From a virus: a stretch of DNA of 26,808 nt. The stretch's first letter is position 1, and each line of letters opens with the position of its first letter. This document shows positions 5,954 through 24,188 of this stretch, in pieces. The notes under the pieces were generated by a model that worked only from the letters and a program-made list of their open reading frames with translations, ran no database searches and had not been told where the DNA came from. The position numbers were made by a program, and so were the translations under genes. The stretch covers positions 1-26,808 of IMG/VR virus record IMGVR_UViG_3300020183_000390, one strand, 5' to 3'.

Positions 5954-6549
5954 TGGGAAGAATAATTAATCAAAATTCTAAAAGTAAATCGAACGGTATA
6001 GACGACGTATACTACGTAGCAAATTCTTCTGCAATGGATGATAGACTCGTAGTACTTCATGGAGAAGTAAACGAACACTCGATCTCTAATGTAATCGTTC
6101 AGTTACTTCATCTAGCTAATCAAAATCACAAACCCATCCATCTTGTTATTTCAACTTATGGTGGTTCGGTCGATGAAATGTTTTCATTGTATGATACTAT
6201 CAAGTTCCTGCCGTGTCCTGTGCATACCATCGCTCTCGGTAAAGTTATGTCGGCAGGAGTTCTTTTACTAGCTTCTGGTGTCAAAGGCAAAAGGATGATA
6301 GGCAGATCTGCTCGTATCATGATCCACCCAATTTCTGGTGGCGTACTAGGTAACGTGTTCGAGGCGATGAACGAGATGAAAGAATTTGAGAGATTACAAA
6401 GCTTAATGGTGACGGCTTTAACCAATGAAACAAAATTGAAAAAAGAGGACGTCGATAAGTTGATGAAAGCTGGACACGATTTTTTCTTGACCCCAGAACA
6501 AGCAATTGAGATGGGAATTGTTGATAAAATTATTGGCGACAAAAATTAA
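5953..6549 (+). CDS. clpP: ClpP-type serine protease (S14)
   Basis: This 198-residue product is close to the usual ClpP length. It carries the complete catalytic triad: Ser100 in KVMSAGVLLLASG, His125 in RIMIHPISGG, and Asp176 in GHDFFLTPEQA. The substrate-binding glycine strand STYGGSVDEMFSLYDTI (67-83) is also present. ClpP assembles into tetradecameric barrels fed by ClpX or ClpA unfoldases. No Clp ATPase is seen in this window, so a host partner, or use as a prohead or scaffold protease, are the two likely alternatives. The ATG at 5953 has a strong GGAGG at 5942-5946 with six bases of spacing and overlaps the previous stop by one base; the longer reading from 5905 lies inside the previous gene and is rejected. 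It probably belongs to the transcript from the late-type promoter at 4952. Confidence 0.93.
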   Translation: MGRIINQNSKSKSNGIDDVYYVANSSAMDDRLVVLHGEVNEHSISNVIVQLLHLANQNHKPIHLVISTYGGSVDEMFSLYDTIKFLPCPVHTIALGKVMSAGVLLLASGVKGKRMIGRSARIMIHPISGGVLGNVFEAMNEMKEFERLQSLMVTALTNETKLKKEDVDKLMKAGHDFFLTPEQAIEMGIVDKIIGDKN

Positions 6550-6587: not shown

Positions 6588-8237
6588 ATGCCAAAGTATC
6601 CATACGATCATTACTTCCCTTTTCCTCAAATTAGAAAAGAACAGAGGCAGGCGATTGAGTTTGCGCTCGACTCTTACGAGTCGGGCAAAAAATATGTCAT
6701 ATTAGAACTGGGTACTGGCGTGGGTAAGTCGGCCACCGGCCTAACAATCTCGCGGTACATGGAGGCCCATGCCGAACCAATCTTAAAAGAAGACAACGAG
6801 GTTTTAACAGGCGCCTACGTGGTAACGACGCAGAAGATTCTACAGGCCCAATATCTCAACGATTTTGGGCCGACGTCTGGTAAGAATCTCGTAAGATCTA
6901 TTAAATCTTCGACAAATTATCGGTGTTCTTTTTATGAAGACCAAACTTGTGCAGAATCAAAGCGTATCCTGTCTAGACTAACCAAACAATTAGCTGGTAC
7001 CGAGTTTCAAAAACACTGTAAGGCTTCTTGTCCATATTCGATCGAAAAACAGCAATTCATTGATTCACCAGTTTCCGTCACCAATTTCCCATATATCCTG
7101 GCCGAATCAGCGTACGCTGGCAAACTAGAACCTAGAGCACTATTGGTTGTCGATGAAGCTCACAACACGGAAACTGAACTCGGCAAGTTTATTGAAGTGA
7201 CATTTTCTGAAAAGTTTGCTCGTGATATTTTAAAGTGCAAGCCGCCCCGCAACGAATCGCAGGCTGCCATTCATGAATGGATCAAGACAACTTATAAGAG
7301 AACTCTGACGAAACACATATCTTCGCTAGAGAAGTCCTTGATGAAATTAAGCAACGACATCGAAGGTTATGGAATCCACTCAAAACAATACGAGTTACTT
7401 GAGAAACACGCCTCAAAGATCGAAACGTTCGTCGAGGTATACAAACCAGAGAACTGGGTAATGAACGTGGCATTGCCACTTCCCGACAACAAGAAGGCTG
7501 GTAAAAAATACGAATTTAAACCTATCGATGTTTCACCATACGCATTTTCTTCATTTTTTAAATTGGGAGGTAGGGTCTTAATGATGTCGGCAACCATCGT
7601 CGACAAGCAAGTATTTTGCGAATCGTTGGGATTAAAAGATCTAGACGTTGCTTACCTCTCAATTCCATCTCCATTCCCGGTAGATAATAGGCCTATTCAT
7701 TATCTACCCGCCGGAAGCATGTCAAAAGGTGCTATCGACAAAACTCTACCAATTGTAGTCGAAACTATCAAGTTATTGTTGGAAAAACACGCTAGCGATA
7801 AAGGCATTATTCATTGCACCAACTACAAGATTGCAAAGTTTATTAAAGAAAATATTGACTCGTCAAGATTAATGTTGCACGATTCTACTAACCGAGACGA
7901 GGTGCTAAAAGTTCACATTAATAGTGAAGACCCGACTGTGCTGTTGAGTCCATCGATGATGGAAGGTATAGATCTCAAAGACGACCTAAGTAGATTTCAG
8001 ATAGTTTGTAAAGTACCGTTCCCCTATTTGGGAGATCTAGTAGTAAAGAAGCGAATGGAGAGAAACGAAAAATGGTATCCTTATATGACAGCGAAATCTA
8101 TAATCCAAGCTCTGGGTAGATCTATTAGAAATGAAACCGATCACGCAGTTTCATACGTTTTAGATGCGGATTGGGACAGGTTCTATGGCAGAAACAAACA
8201 TTTATTTCCCGATGAATTTATCAAAATGATCAAGTAA
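6588..8237 (+). CDS. DinG/XPD-family Fe-S superfamily 2 helicase
   Basis: The 549-residue product has all major SF2 motifs: Walker A GTGVGKSA (42-49, Lys47), DEAH box VVDEAHN (187-193), motif III MSAT (333-336), IHCTN (408-412), MMEGIDL (457-463), and motif VI QALGRSIRN (507-515) with the arginine finger. Between Walker A and the DEAH box are Cys113, Cys121, Cys144 and Cys148, matching the four ligands of the 4Fe-4S cluster of XPD/DinG helicases. It is therefore a 5'-3' DNA helicase likely to unwind forked DNA, D-loops or R-loops. At 549 residues it is shorter than E. coli DinG (about 716). The start ATG at 6588 has only a weak upstream purine stretch. It follows clpP by 38 bases with no visible terminator and may be co-transcribed. 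Family assignment is firm; the precise role in replication or recombination is inferred. Confidence 0.92.
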   Translation: MPKYPYDHYFPFPQIRKEQRQAIEFALDSYESGKKYVILELGTGVGKSATGLTISRYMEAHAEPILKEDNEVLTGAYVVTTQKILQAQYLNDFGPTSGKNLVRSIKSSTNYRCSFYEDQTCAESKRILSRLTKQLAGTEFQKHCKASCPYSIEKQQFIDSPVSVTNFPYILAESAYAGKLEPRALLVVDEAHNTETELGKFIEVTFSEKFARDILKCKPPRNESQAAIHEWIKTTYKRTLTKHISSLEKSLMKLSNDIEGYGIHSKQYELLEKHASKIETFVEVYKPENWVMNVALPLPDNKKAGKKYEFKPIDVSPYAFSSFFKLGGRVLMMSATIVDKQVFCESLGLKDLDVAYLSIPSPFPVDNRPIHYLPAGSMSKGAIDKTLPIVVETIKLLLEKHASDKGIIHCTNYKIAKFIKENIDSSRLMLHDSTNRDEVLKVHINSEDPTVLLSPSMMEGIDLKDDLSRFQIVCKVPFPYLGDLVVKKRMERNEKWYPYMTAKSIIQALGRSIRNETDHAVSYVLDADWDRFYGRNKHLFPDEFIKMIK

Positions 8238-8305: not shown

Positions 8306-8500
8306 ATGGAAAACAATCTTGTATTACAAAAATGGGACGAACTGAAAACGTTAGTCGAATCGCTTGAGCAAGACGTATCTAAAAACGCAAAAGGTACCGC
8401 CGCAGCTGGCGTTCGAGCCCGTAAAGGTCTTCGACAACTTCAGGCAAAGTCTAAGGAACTTGTCAAGTTAACAATCGAACTTGAGAAGTCTAAGGAGTGA
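8306..8500 (+). CDS. Histone H1-like (Hc1-type) small DNA-binding protein
   Basis: This 64-residue product matches the pattern of bacterial Hc1-like proteins: an N-terminal helix LKTLVESLEQDV, a short Gly/Ala turn KGTAAAGVRARKGL, then LRQLQAKSKELVKLTIELEK. The Bacteroidetes/Chlamydia family reads similarly (LVESLEKDAEKF, AAGTRARKALQELK, LAQEIR). These proteins bind DNA without strong sequence preference through the Arg/Lys-rich central helix and compact nucleoids. Here the RARKGLRQLQAKSK segment (37-50) carries most of the positive charge, and the long Lys/Ala/Pro tail of chlamydial Hc1 is absent. The AGGAG site and the sigma70-like promoter upstream suggest strong expression. The next gene starts four bases after its stop, within a Shine-Dalgarno overlapping the stop (AAGGAGTGA). 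Resemblance is by eye, over a short length. Confidence 0.65.
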   Translation: MENNLVLQKWDELKTLVESLEQDVSKNAKGTAAAGVRARKGLRQLQAKSKELVKLTIELEKSKE

Positions 8501-8890: not shown

Positions 8891-9150
8891 ATTAAATTTT
8901 TAACTTTTTGATAGATACTTTTTTCAATTTGGCAGATCCTCATTCGAGTCAAGTTATAGATTGAACCTATCTCTTGGAGCGTTTTTGGACCTGCCTTTGA
9001 AGCAATTATGACGCAATTTTTGCCGTCCTTGTAAGATACCCAATTTTTACATGATTTTTTTTGACAATCGACGTCGTGTATATCGTGTAAATTAAAGCAA
9101 ATATTATCTTGTACCATTTTTAATTTTCTTTTTTTTGTTGATTGCTTCAT
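8881..9150 (-). CDS. Small Cys-rich protein with sigma70 region-4-like HTH
   Basis: The product has 89 residues. The C-terminal third, TLQEIGSIYNLTRMRICQIE (57-76), is the classic sigma70 region 4.2 helix-turn-helix pattern (compare TLEEIGKRFGLTRERIRQIE), the part that reads -35 elements. Ahead of it is a compact cysteine cluster, C29, C34 (DCQKKSCKNW) and C46, with C18 further out, that could bind a metal. The N-terminus is basic (KQSTKKRKLK). Sigma regions 2 and 3 are absent, so it cannot be a full sigma factor; it is more likely a transcription regulator, or a region-4-only polymerase-binding factor analogous in layout to split phage late factors. The ATG at 9150 is preferred over the in-frame TTG at 9159. 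It is divergent from phoH and convergent with the Hc1 operon, with a dedicated terminator. Confidence 0.75.
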   Translation of the reverse strand: MKQSTKKRKLKMVQDNICFNLHDIHDVDCQKKSCKNWVSYKDGKNCVIIASKAGPKTLQEIGSIYNLTRMRICQIEKSIYQKVKNLIQD

Positions 9151-9193
9151 ATAGCGCAAACACTATAAAATTAAAGCGTATTTGTTTAAACTG

Positions 9194-9202
9194 TGTTATA
9201 AT
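9194..9202 (+). promoter_or_regulatory. Extended -10 promoter of phoH
   Basis: TGTTATAAT matches the extended -10 consensus TGnTATAAT exactly and sits 13 bases before the ATG at 9216. No good -35 hexamer is present at the expected distance, as is normal for extended -10 promoters. The leader would be very short. It faces away from the sigma-like gene in a 65-base divergent gap. Confidence 0.5.
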
Positions 9203-9215
9203 TGTTAGTAGCAAT

Positions 9216-10637
9216 ATGAAAAAAACTTATGTTTTAGATACTAACGTGCTGTTGAGCGATCCAAATTCTATTTTTTCGTTCGAGGATAATGATCTGATTA
9301 TTCCTATGGCTGTCTTAGAAGAGTTAGATAAGCATAAGAGTAGGTTGGATGAAGTTGGTAAAAATGCGAGACACACGTCTAAAACGTTGGACGATCTAAG
9401 AATAAAAGGTAGTTTGATAGATGGTATCGAGTTACAGAATGGTGCTACTTTACGAATCGTAGCGATTAATCCACAGATTTTAACTAATCTTCCCCCGGAA
9501 CTCGAATCGTCCAAGGTTGACAACATGATCATATCATTTATGTTGCAGCAAAAACAAGAACAGGAAAGTTCTTTCAACTCGGATGGAAATTCAAATACAG
9601 CTATATTGGTAACCAAAGACATTAACGTCAGAATTAAATGCGATTCTTTGGGAATCAAATGTGAAGATTATCTAAAGCTTAGAGTAACTGCGGACGTCGA
9701 ACATTTTTATAGGGGAGTAGCAATAGTTGAAATTGACGAAAAACGTGTAGAGCAGTTTTATAAAGAAAACGAACTATTATTGACTAAAGAAGAGACAGAA
9801 AATAACTCACTATATCCTAATCAAATAGTTGTAATAAAAAATACAGGCGTAGACGGCAAGACAACAAAGTCAGCTTTGTCTAAGTGTATTTCTACAGATC
9901 GTCCATTAGTTCCAATAAGCAAGATAGAACAAGCCTTTGGGTTAAAACCAAGAAATAAAGAACAATCATTTTCTCTTGATTTATTATTCGATAATAATGT
10001 AAAGTTATTAACTCTAACCGGACCATCAGGCACGGGCAAGACGCTCCTCGCGATAGCAGCAGCGTTAGAGCAGTTAAAAGGAATAGGCAATTCCGACAAT
10101 GCAAAATACGAAAAACTAATAGTTACTCGCCCAGTACAACCAGTCGGTAAGGATATCGGATTTCTTCCAGGAACCCTTGAAGAAAAAATGGAACCATGGA
10201 TCGCACCAATAAGAGACAATATTAACTTTCTTATGAACAGCAAGAAAGGAAATAAGAAACGAGCTTCTAGCGATCCCACAAAGACTCGTTTAGGCGATGA
10301 GTATTACCTCGCTCTCATGCAAGAAAAAGGACTGATCGAAATAGAAGCCATAACGTTCATTCGGGGTCGTTCTATTCCAAACGCGTACATTATTATAGAT
10401 GAAGCGCAAAATCTTTCGATGCACGAATTAAAGACCATCATTACACGGGTCGGTGATGGTACCAAACTCGTTTTGACGGGTGACATAGAACAAATTGACA
10501 ATGTCCACGTCGACGCTTTTACCAACGGATTGACATACGCAGTAGAGAGATTCAAAGAACATTCTATCGCTGGTCACGTTAACTTAATTAAAGGTGAAAG
10601 ATCCGAACTTGCTACGCTAGCCTCCAAGATACTCTAG
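9216..10637 (+). CDS. phoH: PIN-PhoH fusion: RNase domain plus PhoH ATPase
   Basis: The 473-residue product joins two domains. Residues 1-150 form a PIN nuclease domain: Asp8 in VLDTNVLL, acidic VLEELDKHK (33-41), Asp102 in VDNMIISF and Asp135 in VTKDINVR are the four-acid metal site. Residues about 235-473 form a PhoH ATPase with Walker A GPSGTGKT (269-276, Lys275), TRPVQPVGKDIGFLPG (304-319) and Walker B IIIDEAQN (392-399). This is the PhoH2/YlaK type, in which an ATP-driven RNA helicase is joined to an RNase. PhoH genes are very common in marine phages, although a link to phosphate starvation is not established by sequence. The ATG at 9216 is chosen over the upstream TTG at 9135, because the PIN fold begins at KKTYVLDTN. 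It is followed by a hairpin and then the virion cluster. Confidence 0.93.
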   Translation: MKKTYVLDTNVLLSDPNSIFSFEDNDLIIPMAVLEELDKHKSRLDEVGKNARHTSKTLDDLRIKGSLIDGIELQNGATLRIVAINPQILTNLPPELESSKVDNMIISFMLQQKQEQESSFNSDGNSNTAILVTKDINVRIKCDSLGIKCEDYLKLRVTADVEHFYRGVAIVEIDEKRVEQFYKENELLLTKEETENNSLYPNQIVVIKNTGVDGKTTKSALSKCISTDRPLVPISKIEQAFGLKPRNKEQSFSLDLLFDNNVKLLTLTGPSGTGKTLLAIAAALEQLKGIGNSDNAKYEKLIVTRPVQPVGKDIGFLPGTLEEKMEPWIAPIRDNINFLMNSKKGNKKRASSDPTKTRLGDEYYLALMQEKGLIEIEAITFIRGRSIPNAYIIIDEAQNLSMHELKTIITRVGDGTKLVLTGDIEQIDNVHVDAFTNGLTYAVERFKEHSIAGHVNLIKGERSELATLASKIL

Positions 10638-10687: not shown

Positions 10688-11770
10688 ATGAGTGGAATAT
10701 TAGACAATAAATCTAGGGTCATCGATGCTATTCTGACGACGGAAGGTCGTCGGCAGATGGCTGACGGAAATTTTATTGTCAAATTTGCTACATTTTCAGA
10801 CTCTGGCGTTTTTTATCAAAAAAACGCGAATAGCGGCCACGAAGACCCTACTAATAAAATTTATTTAGAATGTTTTAATCTACCTCAAGACCAAATTATA
10901 TTTGAAAGCGATGATTCAGGTAATTTAGTACCTTTTAAATCTACGGACACTCTTCGAACATCTGCAGCAGAGTCCACTACGTCCGCAAGTTTAGCTTTTA
11001 CGATCTTTAGAGAAGGTCAATTAAGGCAATACGATAAAACTTATGGTAAAAATTATCTAGTAACCGGTAGTATTACAACAACAAAAATTACAGACACAAA
11101 TTTTGCTTCTCAAATAGAAGGTATTCTTACTGCGTCTTTCGATAACTTTAGAAAATTAAAAATAATAGGTTCGAAAGACGACGTTTTTGAAGATAACGAG
11201 TTTGCCTTAAGCAATAACGAAATAACTTTTCAAATTGTTCCCGATGAACTAAGTCTGCAAATGCAGAATGCATCTACGCTTGATGATATCGACGCAATTT
11301 TTAATGATGAAAAATTAAGAAATGTCGAAAACTTCATGTACTTACCGCCTATAAAAAAATCTTCTGGTGCTAACGTCGATAAAAAAAATATAAAAGAACT
11401 AGAAACAGCGGGTTTATTTTTGGGTCAATATAGACCCTGGGGACCGATCGATAAATTAACTTACGAAGATATTTCTAGCGAACTTTCTAAATATGAGTCG
11501 TCTGCCAAAACAATATACTTCGATCCGACTTCTAGAGACAATGAGCTCATTGCACAAATGTTTGAAATAGCTCCGGATAAAGTATCTAAATTAGATGTAA
11601 TCGACTACGGCAAAGTAAACAATAACGCGAATAATCCGTTCGCCGATACACATCACATTTTTTTTATTGGAAAAGTTTTACAAGATTCAACGGGGGCAGC
11701 TAATTTCATTCATTTGTTCACGTTGGTATTTGAAACAAACGAGGAAAACAGTGGCAATAGAGCTTATTAG
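10688..11770 (+). CDS. Virion-type protein with N-terminal LDN-LT-GR motif
   Basis: The product has 360 residues; I know no functional name for it. Residues 1-45 (MSGILDNKSRVIDAILTTEG, then RRQMADGNFIVKFATFSDS) form a motif shared with the 19708 gene product in this window, which suggests a common small fold used by two virion proteins. The rest is Ser/Thr- and Asn-rich beta-type sequence with YLPPIKKSSG and GQYRPWGPIDKLTYED as compact segments. The ATG at 10688 is used because it begins the motif; the reading from 10673 adds only a few unconserved residues. It opens the large structural cluster, and its 3' end overlaps the next gene by 20 bases. A tail, neck or baseplate component is inferred from context. 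Confidence 0.75.
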   Translation: MSGILDNKSRVIDAILTTEGRRQMADGNFIVKFATFSDSGVFYQKNANSGHEDPTNKIYLECFNLPQDQIIFESDDSGNLVPFKSTDTLRTSAAESTTSASLAFTIFREGQLRQYDKTYGKNYLVTGSITTTKITDTNFASQIEGILTASFDNFRKLKIIGSKDDVFEDNEFALSNNEITFQIVPDELSLQMQNASTLDDIDAIFNDEKLRNVENFMYLPPIKKSSGANVDKKNIKELETAGLFLGQYRPWGPIDKLTYEDISSELSKYESSAKTIYFDPTSRDNELIAQMFEIAPDKVSKLDVIDYGKVNNNANNPFADTHHIFFIGKVLQDSTGAANFIHLFTLVFETNEENSGNRAY

Positions 11771-14015
11771 TCAACCACTCAAAACGTCTACACTTTCAGT
11801 GCCAGATTATTACGCTTCGATAATATCTGAAAGTAGAAATGAATATCAGGTTAAATTTATTTTTAACATTCGCAGAACCGATATCACCGAAAAAAACATA
11901 TCAAAATTAAAAATAAAATTTTATCCTGAAAATTACAACAATCAAAAAAAAGACAAAACCAAAAAAATTATCGATAAACAATTAATTGAATACGCCAATA
12001 TCGAAGATTCAAAATTAGAAGTAGATCAATTGTTGCTTGATACTAGCATCGACCTAGAAAATCTTACCAAAAAACCTAACAAAAAAAGAAGAATTTTATC
12101 GCAATTACCGACGCGACCTACTAATTCTACGAATTCAAATATCAATCTAAAAGACATCAATCTTTTTATCATAAAAAATATTAAACAAGATCCGGCTGAC
12201 GTTTTGCAAAATTATTCAGAGTTTTTAAGCTATTCAAATAATATTAAAAACTTAGTTGATTATTATACGTCGACTGCAATTAAAAACGTGGTCATTAATT
12301 ATCCACGCTATAGCACTATTGACGAACAAAGCGAATCACCAATCATTTATGCAAGCCATATCGTAAAGATACCAAAATTAATTAAAAACGCAAAATTTGA
12401 CAAATTTGATATTAATTTTGAACTTTATGCGAAGAATGAAACGATTTCTTCGTTCCAGAGTATATCAAAACAATTAGACATAGAATCGCTTTTCAATAAG
12501 GCGCGAAGTATAAAAGAACCCTTCTTTTCTGGAAATACAATTTCGAATCGAAGTATGTTAACAGCGACAGTTAAAGACGATTTAGCTGATAAGCTAATTT
12601 TTCAGAAAAAAACTATAGACTACAATGGTCTTATATCTCGTTATGAAACTATTTCTGAGGACACGGCGCTAAAAGACAATTCTATAGTAATTTTCGACGA
12701 TAAAGAATCTGCTAAATTAAAGATTTATAGATGCATATCGACTGTCGATAAAAACAATAGTGATCTTTCGGCGTATAAAAACATAATTGATGCAGAGATA
12801 TCGTTTTTTGACTCGACAGTCATGCTAATCTCTAATTCGAACGACGAGAAGGCGGTTCAAATAGAGTTACTTAATGTTCCAGAAGAAGTAGGTTCTTATA
12901 AAATAGAAAAATTACTAATACTTCCCGGATCAAATGGTGGTATCGACGGCAACGCGATTGTAGTATCTAATTACAAAACCAAAGATAACAATATCGTTAT
13001 TGACAAGAACGTCATGAATGGTAAAACATACGAATATATGTTGACGCTTTTGTTAAAAAATGGAAGTAGTAGAATTTCTGTAAAAAAATTACACAAATAC
13101 ATAGAAAAAAAAGTAGTAATATCCGCCGAGGTATCTGACGCGCAATTAGGTACGACGCAAAATGGTGAAGCGTCGGTGTCGTTTAATATAACCTCCAAGA
13201 TAGAGCAAAATACTAATGAGTTAGTCAAGGCGGCTCTTGAGTCCGCAGGTATCTCTGAACAATTTGCTGATGAAATCAAAGGAGAAAAAGCTTTTTTTCA
13301 AAATCTATTGTTTTTTAAAGTAAAAAGAATAAATTTATCAGTATCGCCTGGCGTAGAAGAAGAGTTTAACCAATTTTTTAATACAGGCGGCGTCTTCAAT
13401 GATGATGAGTTAACTAGATACGTTTCTGCGGTGTCGAACTTAGACCTAAGTCATTCTTATAGATACGAAATTAGAGCGTTTTTAAAAAATCCAATTACTC
13501 TTTTGCCTAGATACGTGAAGGTCATAGAGGGTGGAACGATTAATGGAACATATTATAAGAAAAGAGCTTATCGCCCGTATAAATGGTTTCAAAAGAGCGC
13601 GTTAGAAACTGGCACTCTTGGCGCTGAAAACGAGGAAGGTATTTTGCTCGATTCGCAATTTTTACAATATGATGAAATAGGCGTCGTAAAAACCGTACAG
13701 ATGGATGTCCTAAAAAAAATATTGGGCGTTAAGAACTTTTTGGCCAATCGAATAACACTCGATAAGATATCACTAAAATGGAGCATAAATAACTCAGGAG
13801 ATCATTACGATCACTTTGTCATAGTAAAAGAAGTTAATCATATAAGAACAATTTTAACCACTACGCACAACAACAGTTACGTAGATAACGTGAATTTTTC
13901 AGATGCAGGCAATATAAGATATTATATAACGCCAGTGTATTACGATTATACGGTAGGTACAACGGTCAGCAGTCAATTAATAACGATCGATCCGGAAGAA
14001 TATGACCAAAGCTAA
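11751..14015 (+). CDS. Large virion-type protein with C-terminal FN3-like domain
   Basis: The 754-residue product starts with GTG at 11751, where GAGGA (11741-11745) gives a good ribosome site; a longer reading from 11667 would lie inside the previous gene. Lys-rich linkers (about 60-110 and around PNKKRRILSQLP) separate beta-type blocks. A segment near SYKIEKLLILPGS followed by GKTYEYMLTLLLKNGSS looks like an immunoglobulin/FN3-type sandwich. The last 85 residues, from ITLDKISLKWSIN through GNIRYYITPVYYD, have the strand order of an FN3 domain. Such domains are common on phage tail and baseplate surfaces. It overlaps the next gene by 14 bases. The exact structural role cannot be named. Confidence 0.75.
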   Translation: MAIELISQPLKTSTLSVPDYYASIISESRNEYQVKFIFNIRRTDITEKNISKLKIKFYPENYNNQKKDKTKKIIDKQLIEYANIEDSKLEVDQLLLDTSIDLENLTKKPNKKRRILSQLPTRPTNSTNSNINLKDINLFIIKNIKQDPADVLQNYSEFLSYSNNIKNLVDYYTSTAIKNVVINYPRYSTIDEQSESPIIYASHIVKIPKLIKNAKFDKFDINFELYAKNETISSFQSISKQLDIESLFNKARSIKEPFFSGNTISNRSMLTATVKDDLADKLIFQKKTIDYNGLISRYETISEDTALKDNSIVIFDDKESAKLKIYRCISTVDKNNSDLSAYKNIIDAEISFFDSTVMLISNSNDEKAVQIELLNVPEEVGSYKIEKLLILPGSNGGIDGNAIVVSNYKTKDNNIVIDKNVMNGKTYEYMLTLLLKNGSSRISVKKLHKYIEKKVVISAEVSDAQLGTTQNGEASVSFNITSKIEQNTNELVKAALESAGISEQFADEIKGEKAFFQNLLFFKVKRINLSVSPGVEEEFNQFFNTGGVFNDDELTRYVSAVSNLDLSHSYRYEIRAFLKNPITLLPRYVKVIEGGTINGTYYKKRAYRPYKWFQKSALETGTLGAENEEGILLDSQFLQYDEIGVVKTVQMDVLKKILGVKNFLANRITLDKISLKWSINNSGDHYDHFVIVKEVNHIRTILTTTHNNSYVDNVNFSDAGNIRYYITPVYYDYTVGTTVSSQLITIDPEEYDQS

Positions 14016-17000
14016 AGCTAAAAATAACACCCAACAATCGATGCACTCTAAACCTAAAGAAAAAAGTGCAACGCAAAAGGCGCTCGACGAAACGCCTATT
14101 CAAGTTTATTCAATCGATAATCAAAAAATTGATGCAACTTTTTCAGAAACAACTTCGCAGCCGTTAGATTTGTTTAAGAACGTCAGTTCAGACAGACCAG
14201 AAATAATTGCGTTATCTAATTTTCTTCCATGCTATACCAACGCTGGTAATCTTAACGAAATAGGCGAATTTTTTCAAATAAAACAAGATGCTCTATTGAT
14301 AACTTGCGTTGACACTATTAATAACATTCTAGAAACCATACCTACTGAATCAGAACAAACGACGATTAATTATATCGATAATACGCGAACCGAACTTTTA
14401 GATTTTTGTACAAAAATAGAAGATGATATAACGGATTTGGTTAGCGCGTTTGAAGATACAAAAAAAATTCTAAATCCTAAAAAAGACATTAGCGTTGAGG
14501 TAAAAGGTTTACAGGATATACCATCGACTTTTAAGATTTTTGATAAATTTGAAACAATAACCAAGTGTAATCCTGACACTATAAAAAATTGGACGAATAC
14601 GAAACTTTGGTTACAGTTGTGCAAAGAATATAAAGAAGCGTTAAGATCGGGCGTTTGCAAGGACGATGGATTGTTCGTAATGAAAAAATCGTCTCCTTCA
14701 GATTCGTCGATGCAGGATCCTTTTTCAATTTTTAATCCTAAAAACTACGATCAAAAATTTGATTTTAATTCAAAACAAAGCGAAGTTCCTTCCGACGTAT
14801 TCAATCCAGAATTACAATTTAACGTCGATGTAAAAAACACTTATTACAACGTTTTTAAAAATGTTTTTACGAACGACGAAAAATCAATTTTAAATGTACC
14901 AATGGGAGATTTGATACGCAGCGGTGACAAAAAAGAAAAAGGCAAAACTTTAGCAAGATTAAGTTATCTAATAAGTAGAGAATTTAGGTATTCTGATAAA
15001 TTACGTTTAATGTCCCAAGCACAGTCTCCTTCACATTCTTTGTTAACTAGTCTTGGTTATTCATCAACAAAAATTTCGCCGAGTACGACAACTGACAATA
15101 GGTTATTTTGGGATTTTTTTATTGGAAGATTTGGCGATGATATAACACAAATACCATCTCAAAATCGACTAATAAACAATTATAACTTAACGAGCTTATC
15201 TCAATTTGTCGCAACAAGGACAACGACGCAACAAACGGCGCAACAAGAATTTGAAGTTTTAAGTTTTGAGAATCGATATATTAATGACGACATCGGCGCT
15301 AACAGACAGTCAATTTTAACACCAGGTTCAGCGTTTTTAGTCGACGACGTTTTTACGTCGAATACCAGCGATTTGTTTAACACAAGTGACATAAACCTTT
15401 TTAGAAATAAACTAAAAACTACGATAACAAATTTAAAAGAAATAACGGGATTAAACTCGAGTGTAAGATCGTGGATGTTTGACAATATATCGCCCAGAAC
15501 TAAATTACAGATAGTAACTGGAACGACCAATGATTCTGCAGATCAAGATGCAGATACGGATCAAACACCCGAAAATAAACCTGGACAAGATTTATTAGAT
15601 AAAGAAATAAGAAATCCACTGTTGTTATTAAGAAGACTAGAACAAGATTTATTGAACAGCGAAGGTTTTTTAACTAGAACCGGATTGCCTAATAGCATAG
15701 TCGACAATGACACCACGGATTTAGGTCGAGTTTTAATTGCTCGCGCGCTGGCAGATTACGAAAATTCTGGTCGTCACTTGTTAACTAACATTTTCTTATA
15801 TGTAGTTTTTAAAACGAACTCGATTATAAAAGCTCAAAATGGTAATGATTCTTATAGCTCTGCATTTAGTTCTTTAAGGACCGAATTCAAAACGTATCTA
15901 GAAAATTATTATAAAAACAATAAAAACGAAATTAAACTGGGGACTGGTGGAGATCCAAACGTAAAAAGCGTCAATCTAAATGCGCCTATAAACTATAAGA
16001 CTTTTGATAACATCGCCGAGTTTATGTCGAAGCTCTTGAAAAAATTCAAAGTAGCAGATTCGACGGCGGACATTAGCGATCAATTTTCTTTTAGAAATCC
16101 ATTTACCGCCAACGTCGATAGGCAGAAAACGTACTATTCCAGAGTTTCGTTAGAATCTATGATGGTACTTTTATTTTTAATGTGTTGTTTAATTTTAGAC
16201 GACACCAATCAAGAAATTATAGTTGGCTATGCTTCGAACGCAGCGACAATTAGAAAATCAAACAAAGAAGCAATAAGCAAATATGTTTATGTCGATGAGC
16301 AAGGTTCGATTGTAACTTTAACGTTAGAACTTGCCAAAAGCTTTAGAAACGAAAAAGATACAATTCAAGTTTATAACTATTATCACTACGACGATATCAT
16401 CTTGTATGCTGAAAATTTTATAAACGATGAAATATTAAGTGTAAGAAAACTTTCTTCTTATTTTCTGTGTTATTTGTCGGTATTAGAAGCTAAGTTTAAT
16501 GACTTTATTAATAATTTCGAAGCAGGAACTATAGCCAATAACGCTATTAGTATTCGAACTAACTTAAATCTAATACTGTCAACATCAACGACGTTAGGCA
16601 CTCAACAAATAGATAGATTGATATCTGAAATTTTTTCAATAGAACAACTAAGATTAGTAAAAAGTAAATTAGCTTACATGAAAGTTAGATTTCAAGAAAA
16701 TTATAATTCTCTTGTTAGATCGTTAGTAGTTCCATATTTTACTTCTCTAAAGGATGAAGATTCAAAAATTATAGATGGATGTTTACCGTTGGAAGATGTT
16801 CATTTAGTTTCTTGGAAATTTTTCTTAAAAAGTTATTTGAATAAATGGGAATTTAGAAATCCATGGGCGAATAATTCTAAAATTTTATCGGTCGGTATAC
16901 CACATAAACTATACAGAAAATTACAAAAACCTATCGACGCGTCGTCGCTACAGAGCACGATCAACGATGCAAATCTTATTTGTATAAATGTTTATTTGGT

Positions 17001-17766
17001 CGACAATCTAAGACCGTTATTGGTTTATAAGCCACAAAAATTTATTTTTGACATCAATAAATTTTCGATTAGAACGTTAAACAGTTACGAAGATTACCTC
17101 GCCGAACTACCGCCGTCTTTTGACAAAGAAAACATTGTTTTTCCATTTTTAAATTTAAACGATTTTCAATCAAAGTTTTCAAAATCTACGAATTTAAAAA
17201 AAGTTGATTATCAAAATAATCTTGACGAATTATACGCCTTAAAATATAAAAATTTCATCGATCCATCACAGTATATGCAGTTAATAAAAAATCACACAAA
17301 TAACTTCATGTTAGAAGAATATTTGCGTTTCATTACGGGTCAATCTTTCGATGAACATGCATTTTACAACTATAATAAAACACTAACAAATTTCGATGAA
17401 ACGCTAATAAACTCTCAAATATCGTTAACCGAAGGCGCGATACAATATCTAAAGAATACGAGTTTTATTGGGGTCGATGCAATAAAAAATTCTTTAATTT
17501 GTCCAAAAAAATTCGACAGGGTATTTCATTTATATTTCGATCCAGAAAAATTTATTGTTGACGAGGAGAAGATTCAATCGCTTAATTCAGGAAATACTGG
17601 CATAATACAATATTACGAAAACAACAGTGACATAGTAAAAGTACAGTTATCTTCTTCTTCTAATGAATATTATTATCGCCGAGGTGGGTCTATTCAAACT
17701 GGACAAACAGACGATAGAAAACTTGAATTTGATAGTTATTTTGTAGAATTAGAGATGATAGCGTAA
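14002..17766 (+). CDS. Very large virion-type protein (1254 aa), unknown
   Basis: This is the longest gene in the window, and no homologous family is recognised. The N-terminus is polar and disordered (AKAKNNTQQSMHSKPKEKSA). After about residue 50 the protein is a long alternation of helical and beta segments rich in Asn, Asp, Thr and Phe/Tyr. It has one notable buried hydrophobic helix, MMVLLFLMCCLIL (about 720-732), too isolated to be a signal peptide. Low-complexity DQDADTDQTPENKPGQD (about 510-527) may be a loop. The length and position, between two FN3-type virion proteins and overlapping the upstream stop by 14 bases, fit a baseplate wedge or large tail-associated protein, but no catalytic motif is visible. 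The ATG at 14002 follows GGAAGAAT, an acceptable ribosome site. Confidence 0.75.
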   Translation: MTKAKAKNNTQQSMHSKPKEKSATQKALDETPIQVYSIDNQKIDATFSETTSQPLDLFKNVSSDRPEIIALSNFLPCYTNAGNLNEIGEFFQIKQDALLITCVDTINNILETIPTESEQTTINYIDNTRTELLDFCTKIEDDITDLVSAFEDTKKILNPKKDISVEVKGLQDIPSTFKIFDKFETITKCNPDTIKNWTNTKLWLQLCKEYKEALRSGVCKDDGLFVMKKSSPSDSSMQDPFSIFNPKNYDQKFDFNSKQSEVPSDVFNPELQFNVDVKNTYYNVFKNVFTNDEKSILNVPMGDLIRSGDKKEKGKTLARLSYLISREFRYSDKLRLMSQAQSPSHSLLTSLGYSSTKISPSTTTDNRLFWDFFIGRFGDDITQIPSQNRLINNYNLTSLSQFVATRTTTQQTAQQEFEVLSFENRYINDDIGANRQSILTPGSAFLVDDVFTSNTSDLFNTSDINLFRNKLKTTITNLKEITGLNSSVRSWMFDNISPRTKLQIVTGTTNDSADQDADTDQTPENKPGQDLLDKEIRNPLLLLRRLEQDLLNSEGFLTRTGLPNSIVDNDTTDLGRVLIARALADYENSGRHLLTNIFLYVVFKTNSIIKAQNGNDSYSSAFSSLRTEFKTYLENYYKNNKNEIKLGTGGDPNVKSVNLNAPINYKTFDNIAEFMSKLLKKFKVADSTADISDQFSFRNPFTANVDRQKTYYSRVSLESMMVLLFLMCCLILDDTNQEIIVGYASNAATIRKSNKEAISKYVYVDEQGSIVTLTLELAKSFRNEKDTIQVYNYYHYDDIILYAENFINDEILSVRKLSSYFLCYLSVLEAKFNDFINNFEAGTIANNAISIRTNLNLILSTSTTLGTQQIDRLISEIFSIEQLRLVKSKLAYMKVRFQENYNSLVRSLVVPYFTSLKDEDSKIIDGCLPLEDVHLVSWKFFLKSYLNKWEFRNPWANNSKILSVGIPHKLYRKLQKPIDASSLQSTINDANLICINVYLVDNLRPLLVYKPQKFIFDINKFSIRTLNSYEDYLAELPPSFDKENIVFPFLNLNDFQSKFSKSTNLKKVDYQNNLDELYALKYKNFIDPSQYMQLIKNHTNNFMLEEYLRFITGQSFDEHAFYNYNKTLTNFDETLINSQISLTEGAIQYLKNTSFIGVDAIKNSLICPKKFDRVFHLYFDPEKFIVDEEKIQSLNSGNTGIIQYYENNSDIVKVQLSSSSNEYYYRRGGSIQTGQTDDRKLEFDSYFVELEMIA

Positions 17767-17771
17767 ACAAT

Positions 17772-19625
17772 ATGACAACCGTTTCGAAACGATCAAACGA
17801 AATTTATTCTATTCAGGTAACTGAAATAAGTAGATTTACTTCTAAATTTATTTATAATTTTTACGTTGCCGACGAATACGTGCAATCTACTCCAAGCGTC
17901 CCCGAAGTTTATAAAAAACCCACGATAAATAAAAACGATATAAGCTTATCTTCATTTTCGTTAAGAGTGCCTCGATACGTCGAGCTTGAGTGGATGTTAG
18001 ATCGTTTTGGAAATAAAAAAAATGTTGCCGTAGATTTACGAGCGAACGAATGGCGCGCCATTTCGCAAGACAATTTAGCTATAAGCAACTATATGCCCTA
18101 TAGCTTTTCAAGTTTTAAAACAATTGAAAATGCGTCGGAAGATATCAATAAGGGTGTAGATGGCGAATTATTAACCGATTCGGCATTAAGTCAGGCTACA
18201 ATAACCGAAGATTTTTTGGCTAAATTGATGGAGGATTATCAAGAAACGCCAGAGTCTTCAAATCTAGAATTTTTTAGAAAAGAAATAGAAACGTCGAGCA
18301 AGTGTATAGAAAAAATAGGAAATAAGTCTTATGAAACTCTAGGCGTTACTTTCTTTAAACAAGACGAAATTATAAGTCCTAGGTTATTTCAAACGATAAA
18401 AGATAATGAAAAAAAATTCTATACAATGTTGAGTACCGCCATACTTCCTGATATTTTTTCATCTACGAGTCTAACCAAGCAAAATTTAGATCAAATAAAT
18501 AAATTTTCTACTTCACAAAGACAAAACGACTCTTCTTTAAAGTTGCATGGCGATGTTGGAGCAACTACTACAGAAATACCAAATGGCGTAATTAGTACGA
18601 TCGGGTACGTTATAGAAAAACATCGTATTAGCGAAGATGGTTTCGTAAAAGAAAATACTTTATATATAGCCAATCCGAATATTCAATCTACAATAGATGT
18701 TAACGTACGTTATGGTTCAACTTACGTATATTCTATTAGAGCATTTCTACAACTTGAAATAGCGGTTAAACCGTCAAATTCTTCGAATTATCATAAAACA
18801 ATTTTTTACTTAGTAGGTAATCCCACAATAACAAGAGTGAGTTGTGAAGAAAATATACCTCCCCCGCCGCCTACTGAACTCGACTTTGTTTGGGATTATA
18901 AGAAAAAAGAATTTCACGTTAATTGGCAAATGCCATTTAATTCGCAAAGAGATATAACACAGTTCCAGATACTTCGTCGCAATTCTATACACGAATCATT
19001 CGAGCTCTTAGAACAACAATGCTTCGATTTTTCGAGCGTAAAAAAAACGACAGGAGAGATTATAGATGGTAATAATTTCGAAATGTCGAAAGATAATTTA
19101 GCGTATGTAAAATATCAAAAATATCCTACTTTTACCTTTAAAGACGTAGAGTTTATAATCGATGCTGAAAATCTAAAAGCCTCGAAATATATTTACACAA
19201 TCGCGGCAGTCGACGCTCATGGATTGATATCGAATTATGGTATTCAAGTCGAAGTAAGTTTCGATTTTTTCAAAAATGAATTAACAAAAAAGATAGTTTG
19301 CGAAAGTGGTTCGCCCCGACCGTATCCTAACATGTATCTAAAGACCGATTTGTTCAAAGACGTGATTCAAGTATCTGGCTTGTCGTCTCAAAAATTAAAA
19401 ATATATTTTATGCCTGAATATTTTAAAGTAATTTCTTATAAAACGGGAATTAATAAATTGGTAACTACGAATCAAGACGGCAGCAACGGAGGCTATTATA
19501 AGCTTCAGTTCATTAATACGCAAAATCAAAAAACAGATTATTTAAAAATAAAAATAGATGATCCTAGGCTCTTAACTGCAAAAACGGAAACCGAAAGAAT
19601 AGAAGAACTTTATTATTTGATATAA
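17772..19625 (+). CDS. Virion-type protein with FN3-like domain (617 aa)
   Basis: The product has 617 residues. The first third is polar beta/helix sequence (SLSSFSLRVPRYVELEWMLD around 55-75). At about 358-363 a short proline run (IPPPPPTELDF) marks a hinge into an FN3-like domain (about 363-497): FHVNWQMPFNSQRDITQFQILRR is the B-C strand pattern and KYIYTIAAVDAHGLIS the F-G strands. The remaining 120 residues form another beta-rich part. FN3-type modules with proline hinges are usual in phage tail-tip and baseplate proteins that contact host glycans. The ATG at 17772 is five bases after the previous stop, so translation is probably coupled. A clear terminator follows, making this the last gene of the first structural transcript. 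Confidence 0.75.
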   Translation: MTTVSKRSNEIYSIQVTEISRFTSKFIYNFYVADEYVQSTPSVPEVYKKPTINKNDISLSSFSLRVPRYVELEWMLDRFGNKKNVAVDLRANEWRAISQDNLAISNYMPYSFSSFKTIENASEDINKGVDGELLTDSALSQATITEDFLAKLMEDYQETPESSNLEFFRKEIETSSKCIEKIGNKSYETLGVTFFKQDEIISPRLFQTIKDNEKKFYTMLSTAILPDIFSSTSLTKQNLDQINKFSTSQRQNDSSLKLHGDVGATTTEIPNGVISTIGYVIEKHRISEDGFVKENTLYIANPNIQSTIDVNVRYGSTYVYSIRAFLQLEIAVKPSNSSNYHKTIFYLVGNPTITRVSCEENIPPPPPTELDFVWDYKKKEFHVNWQMPFNSQRDITQFQILRRNSIHESFELLEQQCFDFSSVKKTTGEIIDGNNFEMSKDNLAYVKYQKYPTFTFKDVEFIIDAENLKASKYIYTIAAVDAHGLISNYGIQVEVSFDFFKNELTKKIVCESGSPRPYPNMYLKTDLFKDVIQVSGLSSQKLKIYFMPEYFKVISYKTGINKLVTTNQDGSNGGYYKLQFINTQNQKTDYLKIKIDDPRLLTAKTETERIEELYYLI

Positions 19626-19707: not shown

Positions 19708-20433
19708 ATGGGATGGTTAGATAATTCTACAAACAACATTATTTTAGACGCCGTGTTGACGGACTTCGGCCGCGAAGCCTTGGCAAGAAACAATAATTCT
19801 TTTAAAATAGCAAAGTTTTCTTTAGGCGACGACGAAGTCAACTATGGAATTATTACCAAGTATGGAAGAACAATCGGTCGAGAAAAAATAGAAAAAAATA
19901 CGCCGATATTCGAAGCCTTGACCAACAGCAACTTAGCTTTAAAATATAGACTAGTATCCATTCCAAATCCCCTAGTTTATTTACCGAAACTAGTACTATT
20001 AGGTTCGGCGATCGATACGATAGTACCAGGAGCTGGTCCTATATCATTTATAGTACAACAAAAATTATCGTCCCAAGATTCGACCTTACAAATTGATCCT
20101 CAATTAGCTGAGACTACTTTCGAAGTACAATATCCATCGCTTTTCTTGCTAGTCGGTCAAGTCGATGGACAGCAAATTGTAGGCTCAGTTCTTCAAGATT
20201 CTTTCCGTACGGCAACGAAATCGGTCGCTGTAAGCCCAGGTTCGAATGCGGGCATAAAACAAGCAACAATCACTTTGAGCGCGCCAGCAATATCTGACAC
20301 TACTTTTAATACGTATGGTAGAACAATAGACGCTAGTGGAAAATTGCAAATTTCTACATCTATAAAAATAACAGGCGTAATGTCGGGTTTAAGCCTTACG
20401 GTACCTGTTAACATAAACAACAAGTCGACATAA
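19708..20433 (+). CDS. Virion-type protein of the LDN-LT-GR family
   Basis: The product has 241 residues. Its N-terminus, MGWLDNSTNNIILDAVLTDF followed by GREALARNNNSFKIAKFS, matches the start of the 10688 product in order and spacing (LDN, I-D-A-x-L-T, GR, K-F/x-x-FS). The block GRTIGREKIEKNTPIFEALT (about 54-73) is a second distinctive element that I associate with uncharacterised proteins of marine T4-like phages. The C-terminal half is beta-rich and ends in hydroxyl/Asn-rich residues, typical of tail or head-surface proteins. The ribosome site is the strongest in the cluster, GGAGG at 19696-19700 with seven bases of spacing, directly after a terminator. High, separately controlled expression is therefore likely. 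Tail tube, neck or decoration protein are all possible. Confidence 0.78.
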   Translation: MGWLDNSTNNIILDAVLTDFGREALARNNNSFKIAKFSLGDDEVNYGIITKYGRTIGREKIEKNTPIFEALTNSNLALKYRLVSIPNPLVYLPKLVLLGSAIDTIVPGAGPISFIVQQKLSSQDSTLQIDPQLAETTFEVQYPSLFLLVGQVDGQQIVGSVLQDSFRTATKSVAVSPGSNAGIKQATITLSAPAISDTTFNTYGRTIDASGKLQISTSIKITGVMSGLSLTVPVNINNKST

Positions 20434-20452: not shown

Positions 20453-21715
20453 ATGTCAACGTTTCGAACATTATTATCAAACGACATAAAAACCGCAAAA
20501 TCTTTTTTAAATCAATTGATCGATGTACTGCAAGAAGACATCAGCGGTTCTACGTCACGACGTAAATATCAACATTTCGTAACGGGTGGCGTAGGGCCCG
20601 GCGTAACGTCATCGTTGTTTCAAACCGTTTATGATCAAGACTTCACTCTACAAACAGCAAATCCAATATTCGATATAACGGTTGGTTTAGCTCCGCCCAC
20701 AGACGACTACGCAGACGGCGTTTTATACGATGCCAAAATAGGCGAAGACTCAACAGGCAAATTATTGTTCCCCAGCAGCTCATTAATGGCTCGAGAAAAA
20801 GGAGAAATTTACAGACAATTTGCACAAACTCTCTTGGGAGACGGTACTGCACAATTTAAGGTTCCACTCGAGCCTCAAGTTAGCGTGACACAAGACACGA
20901 TAGATGTAGGTTTATTTTTAGCTTTTAAGCGACTCTTTGCAAGAGACCAAATTAAACGTGAAACGTTCGCAATGAGATTCTATCAATCGGCGTCTTTTGT
21001 TTCGAGATTAGGTACTAGCATAGATATGCCACCAGCAGCAGACGCCGATGGATTTTCAAACTTAAACATAACGTCGATTTCTGGTTCTGCGATATTTACG
21101 GACATAGGATCCAATGACGCAAGGTTTACAACATTCGGTGGACAGTATGGAACGATAGTCGATTCTTCCAATACTTCGCGAAGAGTTGGATTGATGTTTT
21201 ACGACGCTGGCGTCGCAGTTTTAGATCTCGCAAAAATCACTTCAGGTAGTCAGTTTGTATCTGGAACGATCGCCGCGATGGCGCCAACGGGTACTACAAT
21301 ATTGGGTAACACTGGCACTGCAACTGCAAAAAAATCAAAATTTATACCTGACTTTGTAATGTCAGGAAGCATGGACGACATCATAGATCACATATGCGCT
21401 ACAAGATTTCAATCGGGTTCTTTGACGGCAATTACGTTCCAAAATATTACAAACATCAATAGCACCTTGATATTCTGTAGAGCTCCTGCGGATGAGTTTA
21501 ATTATTCTTCTAATCCGACCTTCGTCGATTCTACTTCGCAAAAAATAGTAGTTATTGATGAAGGACAGGAAGGTTTACAAGATACGTTTACTTACGTTAC
21601 GACCATCGGATTGTACGACGGTTCTAATAACCTGTTGGCAGTAGCAAAGTTGAGCCGTCCTGTAGAAAAAAGTCCGGAAAGAGATCTTACGTTTAGAATT
21701 AGATTAGACTTTTAA
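20453..21715 (+). CDS. Virion-type protein with shared C-terminal module (420 aa)
   Basis: The product has 420 residues. The N-terminal part (1-240) starts with a helical segment (TLLSNDIKTAKSFLNQLIDVL) and continues as beta-rich sequence with VTGGVGPGVTSSLFQTVYDQ. From about 245 to the end it carries a module also found in the next protein: a strand pair VGLMFYDAGVAVLDL, a middle block FNYSSNPTF, and a terminal signature TTIGLYDGSNNLLAVAKLSR followed by PV, a charged turn and FRIRLDF at the C-terminus. The exact C-terminal ending suggests that a trimer interface or attachment point lies there. It follows the 19708 gene by 19 bases, with AGGA about 10 bases before the ATG. Tail fibre, fibre-joint or neck protein are the reasonable options. 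Confidence 0.78.
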   Translation: MSTFRTLLSNDIKTAKSFLNQLIDVLQEDISGSTSRRKYQHFVTGGVGPGVTSSLFQTVYDQDFTLQTANPIFDITVGLAPPTDDYADGVLYDAKIGEDSTGKLLFPSSSLMAREKGEIYRQFAQTLLGDGTAQFKVPLEPQVSVTQDTIDVGLFLAFKRLFARDQIKRETFAMRFYQSASFVSRLGTSIDMPPAADADGFSNLNITSISGSAIFTDIGSNDARFTTFGGQYGTIVDSSNTSRRVGLMFYDAGVAVLDLAKITSGSQFVSGTIAAMAPTGTTILGNTGTATAKKSKFIPDFVMSGSMDDIIDHICATRFQSGSLTAITFQNITNINSTLIFCRAPADEFNYSSNPTFVDSTSQKIVVIDEGQEGLQDTFTYVTTIGLYDGSNNLLAVAKLSRPVEKSPERDLTFRIRLDF

Positions 21716-21767
21716 TTTATCGCAGCGATTTTATAGTTGTGTAATCATCCAGAAGACAAAATCTGAT

Positions 21768-24188
21768 ATGGCGATATTTCCAGTTACAAATGACGATGTA
21801 GAATTTTTTACTACTATTATAAATCCTAAAAGACAATATTCCTCATCGTCGACGGGCGGAATAGTCGGTAATTTAAATTTATTTCCAAGAAGATCTTTAA
21901 TAGAAAAAGAAGTTACTCCATTAGAAAATTTTCTTGAATCTTACGTTAAAGACACCGATGTAGAATCGTTAAGAAAAAGTGTAGTTCAAATCGCTAGATC
22001 TACAGTCGTCAGTGGATCTTTTTTTGGATCGCTACAAAAATATTTGGGTGATGTAACCAACCAAGCTACTTCTGCAAAAAAACAAAAACAGATTAATATA
22101 AATCGTTTTATTCCTTCACCGTCTTTTACGTCAAATACGTTAAGAAAATTAAACGTAAAAGATATGTTAATGAAATATTATGCGTCGGCATATCCAACTG
22201 CAGGATGGGGATATACCAACTACAATACTTTAAATTTTTTTTCTACGAATAACACGCCAAACTCTTCAGTGTTATTATATCCATCGATCGAAAGACCAGA
22301 ACTTCCTGTTCATGCAAATCACGTAACAGGTGCTTATGCGCTTTCGGGCGCCTTTTCTTTCGATTTTAGAATTAATCCTAGGTACAAAGAAGATTCTATA
22401 ACTACCGGTCATTTCAAGGCGGGAACCATTTTTCATTTATCTTCCAGTTATGCGTTATCTTTAGTTACTGGATCTTTAAAGGATGAAAATGGTTATCCAA
22501 AAGGTTTTAGACTACAACTACAACTAAGCCATAGCGCAGACATCTCGCCTTCGAAAGCTATCCCTGGTGTTTATCCAAAAGATTTAATATTTTTATCTAA
22601 CGATAATTCTTTGAGCTATAACAATTGGCATCGCGTCGTTGTTCGTTGGGGAACAAACATTATTAACGATGGAACGGGTTCGTTCAATATTGACGGAACA
22701 GACGCAGGAACATTTGTAATCCCATTAGGCACAATTATGCCACAAGTCTATACGGGAAAAAGTGACCCGAAAGTCTTATGCGTCGGTAATTATTATGAAG
22801 GAAACAACACAGATTCTTCGAGTCAGCTGTTGTTCTTTAGCGACACGGTAGCGAACAGAGAAGGTCTTGAAACGCTAATCGTCGACAACGCTAGTGTACC
22901 TATCAATTATACGTTTAACCATCCTTTAAAAGCAGAAGTACACGAATTATCTATAAAAAGAAATTACATGTCGAATCAAAATATTTATTCGACATCGGGA
23001 AGCGGTATCCAAAATATCGACGCTACAGTCGCATTCTACGCGCCGCCGTTCTTCACCAAAACATCGCCAGCAAGAACTAGTGTAAATGGATATGGAGGCG
23101 TATTGTTTACTCCTTTCCAAGAAGTCGATGGTACCACAGACGATCCATTTAATGTCGCCTTGGCTTATTCGGTCGGTGGACATTATATAAATTTGGAAAA
23201 CTTTACTAAAGATTTTGCGAACGATATATACCCGCGCCTCCATCACCTAACGGGTGTAGCAATAGATTATACGACGTCAGCGGAAACAGCTTCAGACGCA
23301 CTTTATAGAAGTTCTTTCGTCAAAAAAAGAAATCTAACGATATTACCTTGCGACGAAGGGAACTTTCATCCAAACTATAGTTTATTAAGCGCAGAAGATA
23401 GCACTAAATATATCGATCAATTTGGTAGATCAGATCTAAGCATAATTAATCTAGATGATCTAGTCAGTACCTCATCTCTAATAATCAACGAAGTCAACGA
23501 CCCGAGCGGATCTCTATTTAATTCCTTGGTTGGATTTACGCCAGAAAATCCTGGTTTAGCTCCTGGCCCTGCGATATTAAAATATAATGGTAGTTTATCA
23601 GGAGCTCCTCTTACAATATACCAAAGAACTCGAGACGCTTCTTCAAATCAAGTTACCTTTTTTGATATTAGCAATTTATTCTACGGAAGTAGAATATTAC
23701 CTGGGTCTTTTACGTTAACAGATACTTCTTTGTCTGGCTCGAACGGAAGAGTTTCTATAACAATAAAAGATGATGGTGCGGGTAACCTATATCGCGCCGA
23801 CTCAGCGACTCCTCATGATACCAAAAATTCGATAGGTAATATATTTTATAGCGAAGGAGTTGTGGTAATAAAAAGCCCACACTTGTATTTCTTCGGTAAA
23901 GATCAATATGAAATGTCGTTCAAGGGCGACCAAAAATTATTCTCTTCAAAATACGAACTACTAGCGCCGAGAGGATTACTAAATTCGTCATCTAATTCTT
24001 CTTATGCGATGGTTCAAAATTCCATCAGCGCATCGGCAGAAGTATGGGATACGGAAAAATTTGTCTACATATCTGACGTTAATTTTCATGATGAAAATTT
24101 GAACGTCGTCGCGAAGGCAAAATTAGCACAACCAGTCTTAAAAAGAGAAGGCGAAAAAATTCTATTTAAAATAGCTTTCGATTTTTGA
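21768..24188 (+). CDS. LamG-like domain virion protein with shared C-terminal module (806 aa)
   Basis: The product has 806 residues. About 190-400 has the layout of a laminin-G/concanavalin-type carbohydrate-binding domain: SGAFSFDFRI, WHRVVVRWGT, FNIDGTDAGTFVIPLG, VLCVGNYYEG and VHELSIKRN in order. This makes it a likely host- or glycan-contacting surface protein. The C-terminal 118 residues (IGNIFYSEGVVVIKS to the end) repeat the module of the preceding gene, ending in YISDVNFHDENLNVVAKAKL and a final FKIAFDF. The pair therefore differs in the front part and shares the tail part. Only weak purines (AGAAGA) precede the ATG at 21768. Its stop lies two bases before the next ATG. An adhesin, tail-fibre or whisker function is inferred from the LamG-like domain. 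Confidence 0.78.
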   Translation: MAIFPVTNDDVEFFTTIINPKRQYSSSSTGGIVGNLNLFPRRSLIEKEVTPLENFLESYVKDTDVESLRKSVVQIARSTVVSGSFFGSLQKYLGDVTNQATSAKKQKQININRFIPSPSFTSNTLRKLNVKDMLMKYYASAYPTAGWGYTNYNTLNFFSTNNTPNSSVLLYPSIERPELPVHANHVTGAYALSGAFSFDFRINPRYKEDSITTGHFKAGTIFHLSSSYALSLVTGSLKDENGYPKGFRLQLQLSHSADISPSKAIPGVYPKDLIFLSNDNSLSYNNWHRVVVRWGTNIINDGTGSFNIDGTDAGTFVIPLGTIMPQVYTGKSDPKVLCVGNYYEGNNTDSSSQLLFFSDTVANREGLETLIVDNASVPINYTFNHPLKAEVHELSIKRNYMSNQNIYSTSGSGIQNIDATVAFYAPPFFTKTSPARTSVNGYGGVLFTPFQEVDGTTDDPFNVALAYSVGGHYINLENFTKDFANDIYPRLHHLTGVAIDYTTSAETASDALYRSSFVKKRNLTILPCDEGNFHPNYSLLSAEDSTKYIDQFGRSDLSIINLDDLVSTSSLIINEVNDPSGSLFNSLVGFTPENPGLAPGPAILKYNGSLSGAPLTIYQRTRDASSNQVTFFDISNLFYGSRILPGSFTLTDTSLSGSNGRVSITIKDDGAGNLYRADSATPHDTKNSIGNIFYSEGVVVIKSPHLYFFGKDQYEMSFKGDQKLFSSKYELLAPRGLLNSSSNSSYAMVQNSISASAEVWDTEKFVYISDVNFHDENLNVVAKAKLAQPVLKREGEKILFKIAFDF

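Follow-up and report, generated by a model that had tools for sequence, protein, structure and literature searches.

The stretch of DNA analysed here (the window, 26,808 nucleotides) is the IMG/VR virus record IMGVR_UViG_3300020183_000390, and this 26.8 kb source record is probably a fragment. Two adjacent open reading frames (ORFs) on the same strand encode the proteins P1 and P2 (Table 1), and both lie where the original prediction, made from the sequence alone, had placed them. Neither protein has a significant match among PHROG or Pfam families: P2 matches no Pfam family at E up to 1 and gave no match when searched in phage records, and none of 60 P1 orthologues matched a PHROG. The prediction held that these two proteins are virion components which share a C-terminal module behind differing front parts. 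Sequence comparison indicates that the C-terminal module of P1 and that of P2 are homologous, and both proteins contain one common core, the conserved end of which forms the C-terminus.

The similarity of the two ends is seen at several levels. BLASTP of P1 against P2 aligns the final 44 residues (15/44 identical, 34%; E 3e-6). A Smith-Waterman alignment of the last 110 residues of P1 with the last 118 of P2 has a z-score of 12.7, and 0 of 500 shuffles reach its score. Comparison of profiles built from 60 P1 and 69 P2 orthologues covers 106 columns at E 5.6e-12, or 91 columns at E 8.8e-10 without realignment, and a second, weak match joins P1 238-257 to P2 682-701 around the FY..GV strand (E 0.0022). 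As a control, five other window proteins were compared with five module families, the best of these 25 comparisons giving E 0.047. A chance likeness of the last few residues is thus ruled out by BLASTP, profiles, shuffles and the unrelated-protein control together. The FY..GV, AKL..PV and LDF/FDF motifs stand at the positions that had been given for them, with AKLSRPV starting at P1 residue 398 and AKLAQPV at P2 residue 784, and the chains close with RLDF and AFDF, respectively. Separately built AF2 models (predicted local distance difference test, pLDDT, 80.8 for P1 and 88.9 for P2) are predicted to finish in the same series of strands, E325-344, E380-388, E394-406 and E412-419 in P1 and E713-733, E765-774, E780-793 and E798-805 in P2.

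The shared ranges first proposed, residues 245-420 of P1 and 689-806 of P2, do contain the likeness, but the core starts further forward, at residues 150 and 626. This extent was mapped through fam0, a family of proteins of about 350 amino acids from Flavobacterium phage immuto and Microcystis phage Mel-JY01. P1 1-420 is collinear over its full length with fam0 1-357 (hhalign E 1.9e-29). P2 626-806 matches fam0 (E 1.2e-9) and a further family, fam3 (E 1.9e-14), and from residue 646 it matches fam4 of Mel-JY01 (E 1.2e-11). Via fam0, P1 150-420 can be aligned with P2 626-806, and 39 of the 162 aligned residues are identical. The idea that P1 is a mere C-terminal tail of a longer protein was rejected, P1 being a full-length homologue of the proteins of about 350 residues. 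No shared N-terminal start is claimed for P1 and P2, as 9 of 500 shuffles reach its score and the collinear N-terminal match of P2 with fam3 has E 0.25.

Table 1. Features of the P1-P2 locus (window coordinates).
Feature	Position	Strand	Remarks
P0005, conserved partner gene	19708..20433	+	241 aa; directly upstream of P1
P1	20453..21715	+	420 aa; core-only paralogue
Shared core in P1 (residues 150-420)	20900..21712	+	mapped through fam0; P1-specific inserts at about 179-230 and 264-323
FYDAGVAV strand of P1 (residues 249-256)	21197..21220	+	sequence, profile comparison
C-terminal module of P1 (residues 319-420)	21407..21712	+	DEFNYSSNP, Y-x-T-T-x-GLYD, AKLxxPV, terminal strand LDF
P2	21768..24188	+	806 aa; LamG-bearing front, core at C-terminus
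LamG/pentraxin-like (concanavalin A-like) domain of P2 (about residues 150-412)	22215..23003	+	by fold; some matches to about 530
Shared core in P2 (residues 626-806)	23643..24185	+	hhalign against fam0, fam3, fam4
FYSEGVVV strand of P2 (residues 693-700)	23844..23867	+	sequence, profile comparison
C-terminal module of P2 (residues 708-806)	23889..24185	+	

Proteins with this module form an unnamed new family, while the kind of arrangement is already known. Its members share with P1 and P2 the core homology, the C-terminal module and tandem genes after a P0005-like gene, as found in immuto, Mel-JY01 and RM378. Membership was set at E 1e-3 on the ORFs of retrieved loci (several overlap on a single contig) and yielded 171 module ORFs in the first loci and 504 non-redundant ones in all loci (identical ORFs merged, near-identical ones kept apart). 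Hundreds of environmental phage contigs carry the family, some of more than 300 kb. The P1 module is present in 7 of 50,697 phage records, and a search of genome contigs returned four relatives, all from uncultured or metagenome-assembled genomes. The relatives in immuto, Mel-JY01, RM378 and LR756508 are annotated as hypothetical proteins or not annotated, and no paper naming the module was found in the accessible parts of the open-access literature searched. A strict claim that all fronts, that is, the parts before the module, are unrelated would be wrong: loose linkage joins all 442 complete fronts in one cluster, because the core extends past the first module boundary, and stricter linkage gives 16 groups.

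In 453 of the 502 ORFs with a stop, the module lies at the protein end (within 3 residues). Fibre chaperone domains also lie at the very C-terminus, and the module might accordingly be an assembly aid, a trimerisation or intramolecular-chaperone domain that is perhaps cut off later, rather than a docking platform. Against this, 49 of the 502 ORFs continue for at least 5 residues past the module, and in fam0 and P1 the module residues belong to a full-length collinear core. Moreover, the module columns that never or hardly ever vary are N, Y, T, P and K, without a Ser-Asp type pair, and the S74-type peptidase is not among the 19 Pfam families matched by 70 diverse modules at E up to 0.5. We regard such an assembly aid as quite unlikely. 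The role of assembly tail that had been ascribed to the module is one we infer.

The whole records of 16 large contigs related to the window contain exactly two copies each; immuto and LR756508 hold two, Mel-JY01 five in a row, and RM378 one copy and a weak match (E 0.0087). Neighbouring copies lie at most 100 base pairs (bp) apart in 285 of 345 pairs, a count in which overlapping loci were kept. Both P1 and P2 are present in 74 distinct loci, and in 52 of these the gap between them is below 200 bp. The gap is at least 200 bp in the remaining 22 of 74 (among them L021, L027, L038, L045, L048, L049, L057, L058, L061, L065, L066, L068, L074 and L138) and often holds an ORF that by eye resembles an HNH or GIY-YIG homing endonuclease.

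The upstream neighbour is conserved: a P0005 relative precedes the first module gene by at most 150 bp in 148 of 164 distinct loci, and a P0005-like gene stands directly upstream in all five types (window, immuto, Mel-JY01, RM378, LR756508). We rejected P0005 as the first half of the collar domain of gpH of phage P2, since the profile comparison gave E 0.39. In RM378 a second, weak P0005-like ORF follows right after the module gene (13635-14342 of locus L004; E 6e-4). P0005 (19708-20433) shares its N-terminal residues, about 55 in number, with P0007 (10673-11770; profile E 4e-5), which makes a second related pair in the window. Elsewhere in the window, a 137-residue protein at 24185-24598 matches both the TnsA-like endonuclease N-terminal domain (E 1e-16) and a PHROG called head closure (E 2.4e-26). 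A ClpP-type protease, a helicase, a 64-residue histone H1-like (Hc1) protein and a PIN domain fused to PhoH are encoded at 5905-6549, 6588-8237, 8306-8500 and 9135-10637, respectively. Three long ORFs at 11667-19625 (782, 1254 and 617 residues) are without significant Pfam or PHROGs match and match nothing in the immuto, Mel-JY01, RM378 or LR756508 loci.

The front of P2 is predicted to hold a jelly-roll LamG-like domain, linked to known domains by fold and through fam4, so that the LamG-like domain originally proposed for one of the two fronts is borne out. The P2 model matches PAPP-A (8d8o_B; Z 18.5, root-mean-square deviation (rmsd) 3.3 over 220 residues) and 4dqa (Z 18.2, rmsd 2.9 over 207). 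In fam4 of Mel-JY01 an insert within the core is Pfam Laminin_G_3 (E 3.2e-14), and the P2 profile also matches this insert (hhalign E 7e-5). The same domain type thus stands before the core in one paralogue and within the core in another.

The original prediction took the fronts for receptor-binding heads that are swapped on a fixed tail; in its full form, this would make the pair a host-range cassette with exchanged heads. The LamG-like fold of P2 and the LamG insert inside the same core in fam4 speak for such a cassette, and so does exchange at one gene position of Mel-JY01-like phages, two module genes before fam4. There, among 23 distinct complete proteins of 823-1329 residues, drawn from 30 loci that contain fam4 and have three or more module ORFs, the C-terminal 350 residues align in 253 of 253 pairs and the fronts in 29 of 253. 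Five long Mel-type proteins (L003, L273, L290, L293, L299) were searched, and 0 of 5 matched Pfam. In the lineage of the window, by contrast, the fronts are conserved. Across 60 orthologues, P1 residues 21-80 keep about 86% identity with the window protein, a front as conserved as the tail of P1, and P2 residues 221-300 are 62-78% identical over 69 orthologues, the LamG stretch being among the best conserved parts of the protein. Fronts of P1 and of P2 are conserved in all 2775 pairs each, a count that is partly circular because these families were drawn up by front similarity. An independent check is given by gene order: a following module gene is present in 76 of 82 distinct P1 cases, the other 6 having no further module gene in the locus, and it is a P2 orthologue in 76 of 76. 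Host-range determinants usually vary fastest, which counts against a cassette whose fronts are so well kept, and we think the cassette unlikely. The sequences partly support the layout first read from the locus: it holds in relatives, at one position and with the fixed part C-terminal, and not in P1 and P2 themselves, where no swapping of N-terminal parts is seen among orthologues and any following module gene in the locus is a P2 orthologue.

Gene context and weak matches favour a place for P1 and P2 at the baseplate periphery or the fibre root. In Mel-JY01, gp25- and gp6-type wedge genes lie upstream of the five module genes; in the immuto record, baseplate assembly and baseplate wedge genes lie upstream and tail fibre/spike genes just downstream. 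Of 11 large relatives of the window, 10 possess a gp25-type gene, with 8 of these matches scoring over the curated cut-off; these phages are therefore probably contractile-tailed. The commonest named families among weak module matches are PHROG tail-fibre families, with phrog_1162 in 12 of 70 modules (best E 7.4e-4). The top structural match of the P1 model is gp105 of Listeria phage A511 (baseplate wedge 3, 6HHK), spanning N- and C-terminal residues of P1, and we take this fold as a hint.

Several observations weigh against this placement. In the window's lineage tens of kb separate gp25 from the pair, so that local gene order alone cannot place it in the baseplate, and the window proteins scanned matched no baseplate family. 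Searches of PDB sequences gave nothing of use, the three matches (E 0.35-1.5) looking like chance, and Foldseek of P1 against PDB found none at E up to 0.001. The matches to A511 gp105 (Z 5.5, rmsd 3.4 over 80 residues) and T4 gp6 (Z 3.5, rmsd 5.8 over 115) are weak, under what the search program counts as meaningful. After A511 gp105, the P1 model next matches two neck/connector chains, 9c39_K (Z 4.8, rmsd 2.8 over 69) and 9mt4_K (Z 4.5, rmsd 2.9 over 69), and LamG-like domains are found in many viral structural proteins; both would suit a head, neck or sheath decoration, the core being a common bead by which different domains are clipped to the body of the virion. The Z-scores of these two chains are within the noise range, however, and the gene context in Mel-JY01 and immuto is that of baseplate and fibre, which leaves such a decoration very improbable.

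In phage T4, the baseplate-periphery proteins gp10, gp11 and gp12 are encoded by three genes in a row and share a core fold to which loops and subdomains are added at different sites (PMC3004832). P1 and P2 likewise come from consecutive genes and have a common core and different decorations, and T4 gp10-gp12 may be regarded as the nearest parallel, in layout and not in kinship. They differ in that the T4 proteins are similar in structure only, P1 and P2 also in sequence profiles. Neither T4 gp10, gp11 and gp12 nor phage P2 gpH is listed in the P1 fold search, which excludes nothing.

PF12571 (DUF3751), found in phage P2 gpH and R-pyocin fibres, carries a GLYDDxGxLIAVA motif that resembles GLYDxxNxLLAVAKL of the module. 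For this tail-collar fibre N-terminal domain, contact between fibre and baseplate has been proposed (PMC6363177). With a profile of phage P2 gpH relatives, all 77 hits (E up to 1) fall on module ORFs; independent hits would give an expectation of 12.6, but these hits are not independent. All 103 domain matches to module ORFs fall inside the module. The differences are considerable: about 15-25 residues match, PF12571 is found in 5 of 70 modules with best E 0.021, under the curated cut-off (phage P2 gpH itself, as a reference, reaches E 2.8e-58), and the domain is N-terminal in fibres whereas the module is C-terminal here. A511 gp105 is reported to form the proximal part of the fibres and to attach the receptor-binding proteins (PMC11406892); its match to P1 covers 80 residues at 9% identity and is no evidence of kinship. 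The proteins of immuto, Mel-JY01, RM378 and LR756508, in contrast, are true relatives, with five copies in Mel-JY01 against two in the window.

Taken together, we consider it fairly probable that P1 and P2 are paralogues with a structural role in a large contractile-tailed phage, with the baseplate periphery or the tail-fibre root as their most likely site. The core would be a docking platform that joins each protein to the baseplate or to its neighbours, and this platform would have been multiplied through gene duplication. A tree was built from 70 diverse modules; it rests on 123 columns and leaves many forks unresolved. In it, P1 groups with RM378 gp128 (support 97/84) and weakly with fam0 (93/61), fam3 and fam4 come together apart from all others (96/88), and the branch of P2 is long. 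This fits a duplication that took place before these phages diverged, with further copies arising later in the Mel-JY01 group. The inserts of P1, the LamG front of P2 and the long fronts of Mel-JY01-like phages may be decorations for separate jobs, for example touching surface polysaccharide. Exchange of fronts would concern one gene position in one group of relatives and would not occur between P1 and P2 today.

More tentatively, and as a possibility rather than an expectation, the family may be a superfamily of reversed polarity. The C-terminal core would then be the virion anchor, with the exchangeable part before or inside it, opposite to the usual fibre with its N-terminal anchor, and large environmental phages would use two to five consecutive paralogues for the tail tip. 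If the baseplate or fibre-root reading holds, the tail-tip genes of such phages would be recognisable from a profile of the C-terminus together with a P0005-like neighbour. Mel-JY01-like phages would then offer a natural series of different fronts on a fixed core for finding the proteins that touch the host.

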